Notes under the pieces: generated by a model
The model's input: only the letters and a program-made list of their open reading frames with translations
Databases searched by the model: none
Told to the model about the DNA's origin: nothing
Shown: positions 46,285 to 52,394 of the stretch, piece after piece
Layout: every line of letters starts with the position of its first letter
How positions within the stretch are numbered: position 1 is the stretch's first letter
Source: Verrucomicrobiaceae bacterium
GTDB taxonomy: Bacteria > Verrucomicrobiota > Verrucomicrobiia > Verrucomicrobiales > Verrucomicrobiaceae
Assembly: GCA_016795485.1 (NCBI GenBank)
Contig: JAEUHM010000003.1
Coordinates: 1 to 64,000, forward strand
Reading direction: 5' to 3'
Length of the DNA: 64,000 bases
Program-made: the position numbers and the translations under genes

Positions 46285-47304
46285 CTAGGCTGCACGATCA
46301 GCCGCGCGGTAGCGGGCCTCCTGCTCAGCCAACTTCAAGTCAGCCTCCACCATCAGCTTCACCAGCTCCTTGAACTTCACCTTCGGCTCCCAGCCCAACT
46401 GCCGCTTAGCCTTAGCAGGATCACCGATCAGCAACTCCACTTCCGCAGGCCGCTCATAGCGGGCGTCATGCTTCACATACTGCTGCCAATCCAGCCCCAG
46501 ACAGCCAAACGTCTCCTCCACGAACTCCTTCACCGTGTGCGTCTCATTCGTAGCCACCACATAGTCATCCGGATTGTCCTGCTGAAGCATCAGCCACATC
46601 ATCTCCACATACTCCTTGGCAAAGCCCCAGTCCCGCTTGGCATCCATGTTCCCCAGGTAAAGCGCATCCTGCAGGCCCATCTTGATCCGAGTGGCCGCAC
46701 GCGTGATCTTCCGCGTCACAAACGTCTCACCACGGCGCGGAGACTCGTGATTGAACAAAATACCGTTACTCGCGTGCATGTTGTAGCTCTCCCGGTAGTT
46801 CACCGTCAGCCAGTATGCATACACCTTGGCACACGCATACGGAGAGCGCGGCCAGAACGGAGTCTTCTCCGTCTGCGGCACCTCCTGCACCTTGCCAAAC
46901 ATCTCAGAAGACGACGCCTGGTAGAAACGCACCTTCTTCACCAGCCCCGTCTCGCGGATCGCCTCCAGGATACGCTGAGTGCCCAAGCCCACGATGTCCC
47001 CCGTGCTCTCCGGCACGTCAAACGACACCCGCACATGGCTCTGAGCCCCCAGATTGTAAATCTCATCAGGCTTCAGCTCATACAGCAGCTTTACCAGAGC
47101 CACAGAATCCGTCAGGTCGCCGTAGTGCAAGATCAGCCGATTATTGTGCACGTGCGGATCCTGGTAAAGGTGGTCGATCCGGCTCGTGTTGAAAGTAGAG
47201 GCCCGGCGGATGATGCCATGGACCTCATAGCCCTTCTCTAGCAGCAGTTCTGCCAGATAAGAGCCGTCCTGTCCTGTGATGCCGGTAATGAGTGCGCGTT
47301 TCAT
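46285..47304 (-). CDS. gmd: GDP-mannose 4,6-dehydratase
   Basis: 339 residues from the ATG at 47304; 21 in-frame upstream codons lack similarity to the family start. The NAD(P) loop G-I-T-G-Q-D-G is at 8-14 and the Y156-x3-K160 pair lies in [24 protein letters not shown] is the family motif. It makes GDP-4-keto-6-deoxymannose, precursor of GDP-fucose and GDP-rhamnose. It is the first gene of a minus-strand run with ugd. No fucose synthase (fcl) is visible next to it. Confidence 0.96.
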
Positions 47305-47407
47305 GCGTGGAACCCGTTTCCAAGCACGGCTTCGGCCCAGGATCAAGTCCCGGTCAGCCCCGGACATCAGTATTCCAGAGAGAAAGCGTCAGCCGGCGGT
47401 GAACGGT

Positions 47408-47573
47408 GAGCGGTGGAGTGGTGGAGCGGTGGAGCGGTGGAGCGGTGGAGTGGTGGAGTGATGCGTGATGCGTGATGCGTGATGCGTGATGCGTGATGCG
47501 TGATGCGTGGTGCGTGGTGCGTGGTGCGTGGTGCGTGGTGCGTGGTGCGTGGTGCGTGGTGCGTGGTGCGTGG
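47408..47573. repeat. Nonamer and heptamer tandem arrays
   Basis: About five or six copies of a 9-bp unit (gcggtggag with t/c variants) fill 47408-47460. They are followed by seven copies of atgcgtg (47461-47509) and nine of gtgcgtg (47510-47572). The heptamer array is open in several frames and encodes H-H-A-P-R-T-T type peptides on the minus strand, which I do not regard as genes. The arrays lie just upstream of gmd and are likely to vary in copy number. Confidence 0.9.
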
Positions 47574-47576
47574 GTG

Positions 47577-48310
47577 GTCTCCCCCACCGGCCCAAAGGGC
47601 CGGCAGAGCCCAGCCCAGGGCTGAGCGTAGCGATGCCCTGGGTTCCCGATCCCGCAACGCGAGGTGCCCTGAAGGGGCACGAGAGACTCTGATCCCTCTC
47701 GCGGCCCTTCAGGCCGCACCGCATGGGCCAAACCGAGACCCAGGGCATGGCTCCGCCAAGCCCTGGGCTAAAATCTCCGCCCCACCTTGGGGGCGTCCCT
47801 CCCGCAAAACACCTCGTCACCAGGCCCTGAGCAACCCGACCACCGTTCACCACTCCAACTCTCCCCCCCCCCACCGGCCCAAAGGGTCGGCAGAACCCAG
47901 CCCAGGGCTGAGCGTAGCGATGCCCTGGGTTCCCCATCCACGCAACGCGAGGTGCCCTGAAGGGGCACGAGAGACTCTGATCCCTCTCGCGGCCCTTCAG
48001 GCCGCAACGCATGGGCCACACCGAGACCCAGGGCATGGCTCCGCCAAGCCCTGGACTAAAATCTCCGCCCCACCTTGGGGGCATCCAGCCCGCAAACCAC
48101 CACACCATTTCATCACCCCTCACGCCCAGAGCAACCCGATCACCGAATACCCACCTTACCGACCACCGAACACGCATCACCACTCCAACTCTCCCCCCCG
48201 CTCCGGCCCAAAGGGTCGGCAGAGCCTAGCCCAGGGCTGAGCGTAGCGATGCCCTGGGTTCCCCATCCCGCAACGTGAGGTGCCCTGAAGGGGCACGAGA
48301 GCCCCCGGAA
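47577..48310. repeat. Three copies of a multi-hairpin dispersed element
   Basis: Copies begin near 47583, 47871 and 48200; the third is cut off near 48305 at the end of the GloVer gene. Each full copy (~215 bp) is a string of hairpins: cccagggc/gccctggg around 13 nt, gtgccc/gggcac, gcggcc/ggccgc, then a second cccagggc/gccctggg pair. Copies 2 and 3 also share the preceding caccactccaactctccccc. The element can be translated in several frames, giving S-P-G-L-S-V-A-M-P-W-V peptides that appear in many PVC hypothetical proteins, so such annotations are probably repeat artefacts. No gene is supported between 47305 and 48326. Confidence 0.85.
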
Positions 48311-48326: not shown

Positions 48327-51300
48327 CTACGGCACCGCCACGTGCAGCAAATGCGTGCCACCCGCTGCATCCGTCACCTGCATCACCACCTCGCCGTTGT
48401 TGTTGAAGCTCCTCGTCTGAGCAGGGCTTCCGGTGAGCGGGAGCAGCGCCTTGAAGCTCTTCACGGTGCTGCTGCCGAAGGTGCCTCCTTCTTGGATGAG
48501 CTTCTTCACTTGTCCAAGACTGTCTGTGGCCCAGATACCCGTGTCGCTTGCGGTGGTGATGCCGCCCTGGCCTACTGTCATCGTGGCGTAGAACAATGGC
48601 TTGCGTCCATGCGGCATTGCTACCGAGGTAAATGCCTTCCACTTGGCTCCGGCAGTCACGCCAGCAGGTTGTTCGCCCTCACGAGCCACCAAACTCAGCG
48701 TGCTGCCATCGTGATGCCATACGCCGTCGTTGTTGGTGGAGACTATTCCTGCACTGCTGTTCAGCGCTGTGCTGCCGACGAACGCGAACGCTCCTCCCGT
48801 GCCGTTCACCGGGTCTTTGAACCCGCCGAATACTCCGCTCGTGATCCCTGCCGCTGCTGTGCCTTTGCTCAGTCGTTTCACGGCGAACAGCGAACTGCCG
48901 TAGTCGCCCGTGAAGATCGCTACGTTATTGGCGGTCGTAGCCGAACCACCTTGGACCGTGCCGACGAACGCCAGGAGGCCGCTTCCATCGCTCTGCCCTG
49001 GAATGCCGAAACTCTTCCATGTGGCACCCACACCATAATCAGGCGCTGCGTTCCCGGTGATGTGCTCAAAGAACACAGAGTAGTCGCCTCCCGACGGCAC
49101 AAAGTTCGGCAGCCTGCCCACCGCCACAAGCTTGTTAGTCAAAGTGACCCGCACGGCGATCTGGTCATAAAGCCCATCATAGAGCACACCACCGCCCTGG
49201 CCCGTAGCGGCACGAGCTACCAGAGCGCTGATCACCTTCACCGTAGAACCCAACAAGGGATTGCCCTCACGCAAGACCAGCGTGGTAGTCGTTGTGGCCC
49301 GATCATACATCCACAGGCACTGATCATTGAGCGTTGTGATACCTGCACCGGAGAGCTTGCCGAGAATCGCCACGGCTGTCCCACCGAGCGAAACTGAGTC
49401 AAACGACTTCCACAGTGCAGCACCCACACCGGGAGCCGCTGTGCCCTTGCGAGCCAGCACCACTGCCGCGCCAGCGCCAGAGCCATCCGCATCGAACAAC
49501 AGCGCCGAGTTCGTTGCCGTGGTCACAGCACCCGTGGTGCTCAGAGCGTTAGCCAGACCCGCTACGACTGCCACCGAGCCATCCGGCCCCAGAATGGGGT
49601 CCTTCAGCGTGCCGATGATCGTGTTGGTCAATCCAGGTGCCGCCGCGCCCTTGGCTACTACCAGCGCACCGTCAATGAAGATACCCGCCCCCTTCAGCTT
49701 GCCAGCCACCCACTCGCCATACACCGCTATTTGGCCCGCATCATTGATGGCCGGGATGCCGAGCTTGCTCCAAATCGCCCCTGCCGGGATGCCACTGCCC
49801 ACCACTCCCGCGTTAGGCACCGCCCCGCCTTTGGAGTGCAGCGTGGTGAAGGTGGGGTCGCTGGAGCGAGTGACCGTGAGGACGTAAGCCTGTGCAGTGG
49901 TGCCGTCTTCAGCTGTGACGAGCACGGTGATGACGTTGCTGCCGTGGTTGAGGGCTAGGGGTGCATTAGCAGCGCCATTCACGGTGAAGCTGGCGTTGGT
50001 ATCTGCCAGAGTCGGCGTGAGGGTGAGGCTGCTGACGTTGCTGGGCACGGAGGCGGTGTAGCTCAGCACATTGCTGGCAAAGGATGGCGTCAGCGTGCCT
50101 GCGGAGAGGGTGAGGTCGCTCAGATCAGCGTCATCGTCCAGCGTGGTGAAGGTCATGTCATCGCCATTGCTGGTGCCCTGGCTGTTGTTGGCGCTGAGGC
50201 GGTAGTGGTAAGTGGTGCCGGGAGTCAGGGAGGAGAGCGTGGCGCTTACGTTCTGGTTGGACGTGCCGTTGTCGGGGGAGAGGGTGACGCTGGCGGTGCT
50301 GCCGTAGCTGTCGGTGGTGCCGTATTCAAACTGGGCGGTGGTGGTGAGGCCACCGGGGTTCACCGTGCCGTTGAGGGTGGTCCCGGTGCCGCCAGTACTG
50401 CTGGCAGCTAGCGTGGTAGCTACTGGAGCCGTGCCAAACGTCATCCGCCAGATCACCATCTGGTTGGCGGTGCCGTAGAGGTTGCCATCACTACCAAAGG
50501 TGGGGGTGCCTCGGGGGTAGGCGGCTATACTGCCATCGAAGGAGTAGAGCAAAGTTTGCGTGCCGCTGGCGGTGATCTTGAACACCGTGCCGTAGCTGCT
50601 GGCTCCGCCATTAATGGTGGTGCCGTAGAAGCTGCCATCGCTGCCCTGCACCAGCCCGGCATAAGGCTGGCTGCCATTGGTGCTGTTGAAAGTGTGCAGC
50701 AGGGTGTGGGTGCCGCTGGCGGTGATCTTGAACACCGTGCCGAAGCCGCTCGCTCCGCCTCCATAAGCGGTGCCGTAGAAGCTGCCATCGCTGCCTTGCA
50801 CCAGCCTGGCATAGGGAGAGCTGCCATTGGTGCTGTTGAAGCTGTGCAGCACCGTGTGCGTGCCGCTGGCAGTGATCTTGAACACCGTGCCATTGTTGCT
50901 GGCTCCGCCTTGCTGGGCAGTGCCGTAGAAGCTGCCGTCGCTGCCTTGCACCAGCCCGGCATAGGGATTGCGGCCATTGGTGCCGTTGAAGCTGTGCAGC
51001 AGCGTATGCGTGCCGCTGGCGGTGATCTTGAATACCGTGCCGTTGTCGCTCGCTCCTCCCTGATATGTCGTGCCGTAGAAGCTGCCATCGCTGCCTTGCA
51101 CCAGCCCGGCATAGGGATTGCGGCCATTGGTGTTGTTGAAGCTGTGCAGCAATGTATGCGTGCCGCTGGAGGTGATCTTGAACACCGTGCCGTAATCGCT
51201 CGCTCCGCCAGAGACGGTGGTGCCGTAGAAGCTGCCATCGCTGCCCTGCACCAGCCCGGCCAAGGGATTGCGGCCATTGGTGTCGTTGAAGCTGTGCAGC

Positions 51301-52286
51301 AACGTGTGGGTGCCGCTGGCGGTGATCTTGAACACCGTGCCGTAATCGCTCGCTCCGCCAGAGTAGGTGGTGCCGTAGAAGCTGCCATCGCTGCCCTGGA
51401 CCAGCAAGGATCGGGGAATGCTGCCATTGGTGTTGTTGAAGCTGTGCAGGACGGTGTGGGTGCCGCTGGCGGTGATCTTGAACACTGTGCCGTAGTTGCT
51501 CGCTCCGCCAGAGACGGTGGTGCCGTAGAAGCTGCCATCGCTGCCCAAGACCAGCCCGGCATAGGGATTGCGGCCATTGGTGTTGTTGAAGCTGTGCAGG
51601 ACGGTGTGAGTGCCGCTGGAGGTGATCTTGAACACTGTGCCGTTGTTGCTCGCTCCACCAGAGTAGGTGGTGCCGTAGAAGCTGCCATCGCCGCCTTGAA
51701 CCAGCCCGGCATATGGCTGGCTGCCATTGGTGTTGTTGAAGCTGTGCAGGACGGTGTGGGTGCCGCTGGCGGTGATCTTGAACACCGTGCCAACCCCGCT
51801 CGCTCCTCCCTGATATGTCGTGCCGTAGAAGCTGCCATCGCTGCCTTGCACCAGCCCGGCATAGGGATTGCGGCCATTGGTGTTGTTGAAGCTGTGCAGG
51901 ACGGTGTGAGTGCCGCTGGCGGTGATCTTGAACACCGTGCCGTAGTCGCTCGCTCCGCCATTGACGGTGGTGCCGTAGAAGCTGCCATCGCTGCCTTGCA
52001 CCAGCCCGGCACGCGGAGAGATGCCATCCGTGGAGTTGAAGCTGTGCAGCAGGGTATGAGTGCCGCTGGCGGTGATCTTGAACACCGTGCCGTTACCGCT
52101 CGTTCCGCCTTGCTCGGTGGTGCCGTAGAAGTCACCATCGGTGCCTTGGATGAGGCTAGCGCGGGGGTAGCGCCCCTGATTATCCGAGAACAGCACCTCA
52201 AACGTCTGCGCCTGAGCTGACACCGAGAACAGCAGCGTTCCTGTGACAGCGATCAGCAGAGTTTTGAGAACTAGAGCCTTCTTCAT
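48327..52286 (-). CDS. Giant secreted GloVer-repeat protein with Fn3-like, cadherin-like and C-terminal repeat domains
   Basis: 1319 residues from the ATG at 52286. A signal peptide (1-27, ending A-Q-A-Q) is followed by eleven full and one degenerate 50-residue units of the form G-R-N-P-Y-A-G-L-V-Q-G-S-D-G-S-F-Y-G-T-T, then G-G-A-S-x-x-G-T-V-F-K-I-T-A-S-G-T-H-T-L-L-H-S-F. This matches the tandem-repeat family named GloVer (Gloeobacter/Verrucomicrobia). A fibronectin-III-like domain (~615-705) and a cadherin-like beta-sandwich (~715-800) follow. The last ~510 residues carry about seven ~65-residue repeats around K-G-x-A-A-P-G and W-K-S-F. Probably an extracellular surface or matrix protein. 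No sorting signal is recognised at the C terminus. Confidence 0.9.
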   Translation of the reverse strand: MKKALVLKTLLIAVTGTLLFSVSAQAQTFEVLFSDNQGRYPRASLIQGTDGDFYGTTEQGGTSGNGTVFKITASGTHTLLHSFNSTDGISPRAGLVQGSDGSFYGTTVNGGASDYGTVFKITASGTHTVLHSFNNTNGRNPYAGLVQGSDGSFYGTTYQGGASGVGTVFKITASGTHTVLHSFNNTNGSQPYAGLVQGGDGSFYGTTYSGGASNNGTVFKITSSGTHTVLHSFNNTNGRNPYAGLVLGSDGSFYGTTVSGGASNYGTVFKITASGTHTVLHSFNNTNGSIPRSLLVQGSDGSFYGTTYSGGASDYGTVFKITASGTHTLLHSFNDTNGRNPLAGLVQGSDGSFYGTTVSGGASDYGTVFKITSSGTHTLLHSFNNTNGRNPYAGLVQGSDGSFYGTTYQGGASDNGTVFKITASGTHTLLHSFNGTNGRNPYAGLVQGSDGSFYGTAQQGGASNNGTVFKITASGTHTVLHSFNSTNGSSPYARLVQGSDGSFYGTAYGGGASGFGTVFKITASGTHTLLHTFNSTNGSQPYAGLVQGSDGSFYGTTINGGASSYGTVFKITASGTQTLLYSFDGSIAAYPRGTPTFGSDGNLYGTANQMVIWRMTFGTAPVATTLAASSTGGTGTTLNGTVNPGGLTTTAQFEYGTTDSYGSTASVTLSPDNGTSNQNVSATLSSLTPGTTYHYRLSANNSQGTSNGDDMTFTTLDDDADLSDLTLSAGTLTPSFASNVLSYTASVPSNVSSLTLTPTLADTNASFTVNGAANAPLALNHGSNVITVLVTAEDGTTAQAYVLTVTRSSDPTFTTLHSKGGAVPNAGVVGSGIPAGAIWSKLGIPAINDAGQIAVYGEWVAGKLKGAGIFIDGALVVAKGAAAPGLTNTIIGTLKDPILGPDGSVAVVAGLANALSTTGAVTTATNSALLFDADGSGAGAAVVLARKGTAAPGVGAALWKSFDSVSLGGTAVAILGKLSGAGITTLNDQCLWMYDRATTTTTLVLREGNPLLGSTVKVISALVARAATGQGGGVLYDGLYDQIAVRVTLTNKLVAVGRLPNFVPSGGDYSVFFEHITGNAAPDYGVGATWKSFGIPGQSDGSGLLAFVGTVQGGSATTANNVAIFTGDYGSSLFAVKRLSKGTAAAGITSGVFGGFKDPVNGTGGAFAFVGSTALNSSAGIVSTNNDGVWHHDGSTLSLVAREGEQPAGVTAGAKWKAFTSVAMPHGRKPLFYATMTVGQGGITTASDTGIWATDSLGQVKKLIQEGGTFGSSTVKSFKALLPLTGSPAQTRSFNNNGEVVMQVTDAAGGTHLLHVAVP
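50525..52210 (-). repeat. 150-bp tandem repeats coding for GloVer units
   Basis: The coding repeats have an exact 150-bp period (50 codons) with high identity, for example the recurring gtgccgtagaagctgcc segment. Differences cluster at a few codons (N-N/N-S/N-D, Y-Q/V-S/Y-S). The high DNA identity and constant length suggest recent expansion or gene conversion. The repeats also keep long frames open on the opposite strand (50556-52220) and in another minus-strand frame, which are shadows. Confidence 0.9.
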
Positions 52287-52394
52287 GAAAGTAAGTGAGG
52301 TGACGCACACAAAGCCGCCCAAGATGGGGTGGGTCTGGTGTCGAGGATTTCTTACTGGGCGGGGAAAGTCAATCCTGAAGTGGTGAGGGAGAGG

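Follow-up and report, generated by a model that had tools for sequence, protein, structure and literature searches.

The repeats that lie between two genes of this bacterium are most likely mobile DNA, namely gene-less copies of the hairpin ends of an IS200-like transposase. With a probability that we put at about 0.85, they are non-autonomous REPIN- or MITE-like single-stranded DNA (ssDNA) elements mobilised in trans by a Y1 transposase of subclass 1.2. The repeat is REP-like and transposase-linked, which is a known general kind, in a variant that we did not find described in the literature. The window mentioned below is the whole 64,000-nt stretch analysed.

In the window, the repeats sit between the gmd gene (46285-47304, minus strand) and a large repeat-protein gene (48327-52322, minus strand), where the earlier note had located them. 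That note counted three copies of about 215 bp with four strong hairpins each. We found two full copies of about 210 bp (~47586-47798 and ~47873-48086) and one half copy (48204-48301), and instead of four hairpins a full copy has a set of three (A, B and C) in each of two halves, which are inverted relative to one another. The halves, ~100 nt each, follow the order A-B-C...C'-B'-A' around a centre of ~10 nt; they make the full copy an imperfect palindrome and are 73% complementary over 74 nt. The positions of the halves come from a covariance model, R1, built from 33 aligned transposase ends, two of them from this genome. Element 1 (47586-47798, plus strand) has its halves at 47588-47685 (plus) and 47696-47795 (minus). 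Its first half consists of hairpin A (CGGCCCAAAGGGCCG, 47588-47609, plus strand) with the tag CAGAG, hairpin B (AGCCCAGGGCTGAGCGTAGCGATGCCCTGGGT, 47612-47643, plus strand), and hairpin C (GTGCCCTGAAGGGGCAC, 47664-47685, plus strand), seen in the sequence and by profile, with the tag GAGAG. After the palindrome centre (47686-47695) comes the inverted second half C'-B'-A' (47696-47795, minus strand), recognised by complementarity as well as by R1. Element 2 (47873-48086, plus strand) is 96% identical to element 1, with halves at 47875-47973 (plus) and 47984-48082 (minus). Half element 3 (48204-48301, plus strand), found by DNA search and R1, has A-B-C only and stops about 26 bp short of the 3' end of the repeat-protein gene. 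All five halves were recovered by R1, a model made almost wholly from the transposase ends of other genomes, and of all its matches in the 6.5-Mb genome the highest-scoring one (79.6 bits, E 1.7e-12) is at window 47588-47685.

The folding z-score of the window repeat is -7.9, and none of 200 shuffled sequences was equally stable. Halves 1 and 2 keep the same three hairpins despite many differing stem bases, as seen in hairpin A (CCGGCCCAAAGGGCCGG in half 1 versus GCCCCCAAGGTGGGGC in half 2) and in hairpin C (GTGCCCTGAAGGGGCAC versus GCGGCCTGAAGGGCCGC). The peptide S-P-G-L-S-V-A-M-P-W-V, which had been traced to such sequence, is indeed a reading of hairpin B, in the ORF at 47500-48240. Three repeat ORFs searched against Pfam gave no significant match (best E 0.031, under the cut-off of that family), and the protein-coding reading was dropped on this result. 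We also observed that window 47400-47575, directly adjoining the element, is made of tandem 7-8-bp repeats (GGTGGAGC, GATGCGT, GGTGCGT), and that the spacers between the window copies are of a similar low-complexity, CACCGATC-type sequence.

Elsewhere in the genome, a DNA search located copies on at least 13 contigs, many of them arranged in arrays and several being solo halves. The covariance model counts 64 half-units, and an iterated profile retrieved 57 full-length halves in the genome stretches covered, nearly all ending with GAGAG or AAGAG or just before it. The window copies are 76-82% identical to those beside the transposase gene described next and form a separate sub-family; no second transposase beside this sub-family was seen on the C19 stretch. 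Another sub-family of the same end structure occurs at G000:C28:51184-51270 (46 bits to the Rfam family RF01687), apparently within or at the end of a reading frame.

The earlier note proposed looking for a cognate transposase of the TnpA-REP type, and the genome holds one. Among its seven Y1_Tnp matches, the strongest (C7:82997-83446, 150 aa, 89 bits) has a half A-B-C on one side (82863-82962) and an inverted half on the other (83548-83646), so that the gene occupies the place of the 10-nt centre of the window copies. This nesting supports the suggestion of a REP-like mobile repeat. The C7 protein matches the IS200/IS605 family of NCBIfam (NF033573, 60.6 bits), and the solved structures nearest to it are IS200/IS605 TnpA. 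It carries the HUH motif DHAH, WQAG and YIRNQREHH with the catalytic tyrosine; Y---Q--HH was present in 29 of 30 homologues examined. Subclass 1.2 of TnpAY1 is defined by the signature DH[IV]H, WQ and Y---Q--HH, a size of ~148 aa and a low copy number (PMC6006769). The C7 protein fits this subclass, as assigned by motif and not by tree, in its motifs, its size and its copy number, the genome having a single transposase of this type; in the HUH motif alanine takes the place of Ile/Val, where many relatives have Val. The remaining Y1 genes (two on C2, one each on C10, C17, C20 and C41) were rejected as cognate, the ends near them differing from the window repeat. Three Y1_Tnp genes of ~351 aa (G000:C2:321039, C10:12679 and C17:4758) form a separate family with partly common flanks (GGGGTCAGGTGTTTTC...).

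Homologues of the C7 transposase recur across the phylum, in 101 of 143 relatives, and the same architecture is present there. Results showed inverted repeats in the flanks above shuffles at 26 of 30 homologous loci, with scores up to 166, compared with a median of 22 and a maximum of 33 at 37 gmd control loci. The order of the parts does not vary: hairpin A, tag, hairpin B, a spacer of 18-35 nt, hairpin C, tag, gene; in relatives the core of hairpin B is CCCAGGG...CCCTGGG. In the 33 aligned ends 94.5% of cells pair, a figure read with a consensus structure drawn from the same ends, which biases the slid control in favour of the structure. The covariance check proposed by the earlier note was positive, with a covariation score of 0.304 against 0.097 in shuffles that do not preserve the relatedness among the ends (0/500). 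Hairpin A pairs in 100% of cells and has compensatory changes in five of its six pairs. R1 also matched at all 20 loci left out of the model (59 matches in 37 kb), 15 of which have a plus match before the gene and a minus match closely after it, while the gmd control loci gave 8 matches in 815 kb, about the genome-wide density. Structured ends accompany homologues on two plasmids of Bacteroidota. The one from Persicobacter has the same A-B-C ends, at 35.7 bits to RF01687, just under its cut-off. On the Bernardetia plasmid NZ_CP147018.1 (476467-480916) the ends have two hairpins and a common following sequence TAATATTTGTAGAA; lacking hairpin B, they are a simpler version of the unit.

The short tags at the feet of hairpins A and C vary between families (GAGAG, GGA(G), CCTA, AACAA, GAGACA). 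Within one end, the two tags match at 3.05 of 5 positions versus 2.26 when permuted (0/5000), and the more identical two proteins are, the more alike are their tags (Mantel r 0.68 for tag C, 0.56 for tag A, 0/5000), in tests that leave shared ancestry uncorrected. Repeat and protein also go together in the exact 32-nt hairpin B, which occurs in three of 68 genomes of the family: this one (30 copies), G070 (5) and G015 (1). Transposase identity to the C7 protein is 100%, 90% and 87% in these genomes, the next best being 69% in a genome without the exact hairpin B, and every exact copy in G070 and G015 is on the contig of the transposase. No conserved target sequence was found next to the elements.

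A complete element would read [A-B-C] - Y1 transposase gene - [C'-B'-A'], and the window repeats would derive from such a form. The C7 transposase is the enzyme most likely to act in trans on the gene-less units, and may act on those of the window sub-family, at 76-82% identity to its own flanking copies. It would bind hairpins A and C as single strands and go on to nick ssDNA and join it again, with replication forks as the probable place. In IS200/IS605 and TnpAREP systems, a tetranucleotide 5' of the hairpin guides cleavage (PMC8266576). By analogy, we suggest that the foot tags act as guides: GAGAG/AGA, read as 5'-CTCTC before the hairpin on the other strand, may be the counterpart of the GTAG foot or of the IS200/IS605 guide. 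That the units move in trans, which strand serves, where cleavage falls and what hairpin B does are inferences on our part.

The best surviving alternative, which we nonetheless consider unlikely, is that the HUH protein has become a housekeeping one, as proposed for some RAYTs, and that the units are binding, terminator or mRNA-stability sites of little current mobility. The single gene of the C7 type and the location of the units between genes would fit this. So would the half copies co-duplicated with gene 3' ends: the same half as element 3 follows paralogous large repeat-protein genes on contigs C24, C29 and C32 at equal distance, and these half copies seem to have been duplicated together with the gene, and not to be fresh insertions. 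On contig C60, a half-unit stands beside a mere short remnant of the 3' end of such a gene. Against this alternative are the 30 exact copies of hairpin B in the genome, the lack of a T-run after the hairpins, unlike intrinsic terminators, and the differences between congeners; moreover, domestication is itself compatible with past mobility. As to the congeners, the element is missing from G009 at three of four G016 sites tested, with flanks mostly 89-93% identical (one 80%), and at the fourth site both genomes have an insert of ~200 bp. Some of the intergenic sequence beside the polymorphic sites differs too, which blurs the exact insertion joints; deletion, or replacement by other sequence, is possible there. 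Points against our main reading are that neither a transposition event nor a precise empty site came to light, that no conserved target was found, that the window copies diverge from those at the transposase, and that the half copies look co-duplicated. The place of one G016 element is taken in G009 (C18:261345-261551) by an unrelated stretch of ~200 bp with seemingly its own inverted repeat, perhaps another mobile repeat.

It is less probable still that recombination, gene conversion and tandem duplication of intergenic DNA spread the repeats with no transposase involved. Arrays of two to five copies on several contigs speak for such processes, as do the gene 3' ends common to the repeat sites on C24, C29, C32 and C49 and the gene-end fragment at C60. 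They do not account well for the dispersal over at least 13 contigs, for the co-occurrence of repeat and cognate transposase (exact hairpin B in only three of 68 genomes) or for a nesting around the gene that is conserved in two phyla. A structured non-coding RNA, acting in trans or as an mRNA 3' element and beside the transposase by coincidence, is the least credible reading: it would explain the strong folding, the base-pair covariation and the sRNA type of the Rfam entry, but covariation is equally expected of ssDNA hairpins bound by a Y1 protein, and the units are palindromic, stand in inverted pairs around one gene family, have tags that track the protein, and differ in copy number and sites between congeners. 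RNA was dropped as the primary reading because it leaves the arrangement around the transposase unexplained. Of the structured RNA envisaged by the earlier note, the covariation stands and the RNA itself is not needed, what is conserved being a pair of ends around the gene of an ssDNA transposase. The G-T wobble pairs lean to one strand and are compatible with RNA and ssDNA alike.

The reading as transposase ends extends to a motif already in Rfam. Acido-Lenti-1 (RF01687; Weinberg et al. 2010, PMC2864571), filed as an sRNA without a known function and first described in Acidobacteria and Lentisphaerae, covers hairpins B and A in the same order and spacing, on the strand opposite to that of element 1 as given above; on the strand modelled by Rfam, hairpins A and C each have their tag on the 5' side. 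Hairpin C, the second half and the transposase gene are absent from that entry. The gathering cut-off of RF01687 is 37 bits. Two copies in this genome pass it (C19:1236-1290 and C19:1555-1609, 39.7 bits), while the window copies reach 15.8-21.6 bits, under the cut-off (hairpin B of element 1, 21.6). Matches above the cut-off were found in 39 of 57 genomes. Among the matches listed, RF01687 lies within 1 kb of 13 of 84 transposase genes where 0.1 would be expected, and the gene is within 1.5 kb of 9 of 49 RF01687 loci, against none in 815 kb of controls. The gaps between outward-facing RF01687 matches are of two classes, a gene-less one (27-298 bp) and a gene-sized one (547-643 bp), and a Y1 gene was present in the larger gaps wherever checked (several). 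Across genomes, RF01687 and the transposase also co-occur (Fisher p 1e-5); since this weakens to p 0.06 when one genus lacking the gene is left out, we do not use it as a main argument. None of the papers we read ties RF01687 to a transposase. The claim that the element is undescribed has to be narrowed: hairpins B and A are already in Rfam and REP or TIR repeats linked to Y1 proteins are a known kind, and what we did not find in the literature is this variant. We think it probable that Acido-Lenti-1 is part of the DNA ends of widespread subclass-1.2 transposases thought to be end-less, and either no RNA gene at all or one only in a secondary way. Together these would make up a system like a REPtron, its unit consisting of three hairpins and its foot tag varying in coevolution with the protein, in at least two phyla, the window's own and Bacteroidota being those that our comparison covered.

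How does this variant relate to known systems? Quentin et al. (2018, PMC6006769) reported subclass 1.2 mostly from Cyanobacteria and Bacteroidetes, with neither a REP nor, as a rule, terminal IS200 structures. Here, by contrast, three-hairpin ends are conserved around the genes, copies of the ends are dispersed, and the genes are common in the order of the window. As in REP/REPIN systems with a RAYT (TnpAREP, REPtron), there is a hairpin with a short foot tag, repeats are dispersed as single units and inverted pairs, and the transposase gene is flanked by them. A canonical GTAG REP was ruled out, as there is no GTAG (or GT[AG]G) foot; the unit also differs in having ~100 nt and three hairpins, and the protein is of class 1, with Y---Q--HH, unlike class 2 RAYTs with their Y..NP-type motif. 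IS200/IS605-related MITEs (PATEs) are likewise gene-less derivatives of a Y1 element; the ends here are three hairpins, inverted, and the likeness is one of description. In TIRYTs (TIRtrons), described by Di Nocera et al. (2013, PMC3733652), a RAYT-like gene has long terminal inverted repeats, some self-complementary, that also occur as dispersed families and as dimers; 20 of the 26 TIRYTs described belong to subclass 2.1 (PMC6006769). The gene here is similarly flanked by terminal inverted repeats forming a repeat family; unlike in most TIRYTs, the GGGGWSAS motif is missing by inspection from its own halves (GGGGCACGAG). Class 3 TnpAY1, from Planctomycetes and Acidobacteria, has 'atypical secondary structures' in high copy number (PMC6006769); structured ends and their high copy number are shared with it, and Y---Q--HH and other feet replace its Y----Q and CnGA foot.

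These findings bear on annotation: the repeat gives rise to spurious 'hypothetical proteins'. Tags that vary with the protein, of which nature supplies many, make up a ready collection for learning how Y1 enzymes read guide sequences. If our reading is true, a transposase subclass described without any terminal structures would have them, with substrates testable at once. It would also give a function to an orphan 'RNA' of 2010 that is still invoked to explain biology: a 2026 paper (PMC13298647) proposes protease genes of Tannerella as possible regulatory targets of Acido-Lenti-1 'ncRNAs', and reports no mobile elements there.
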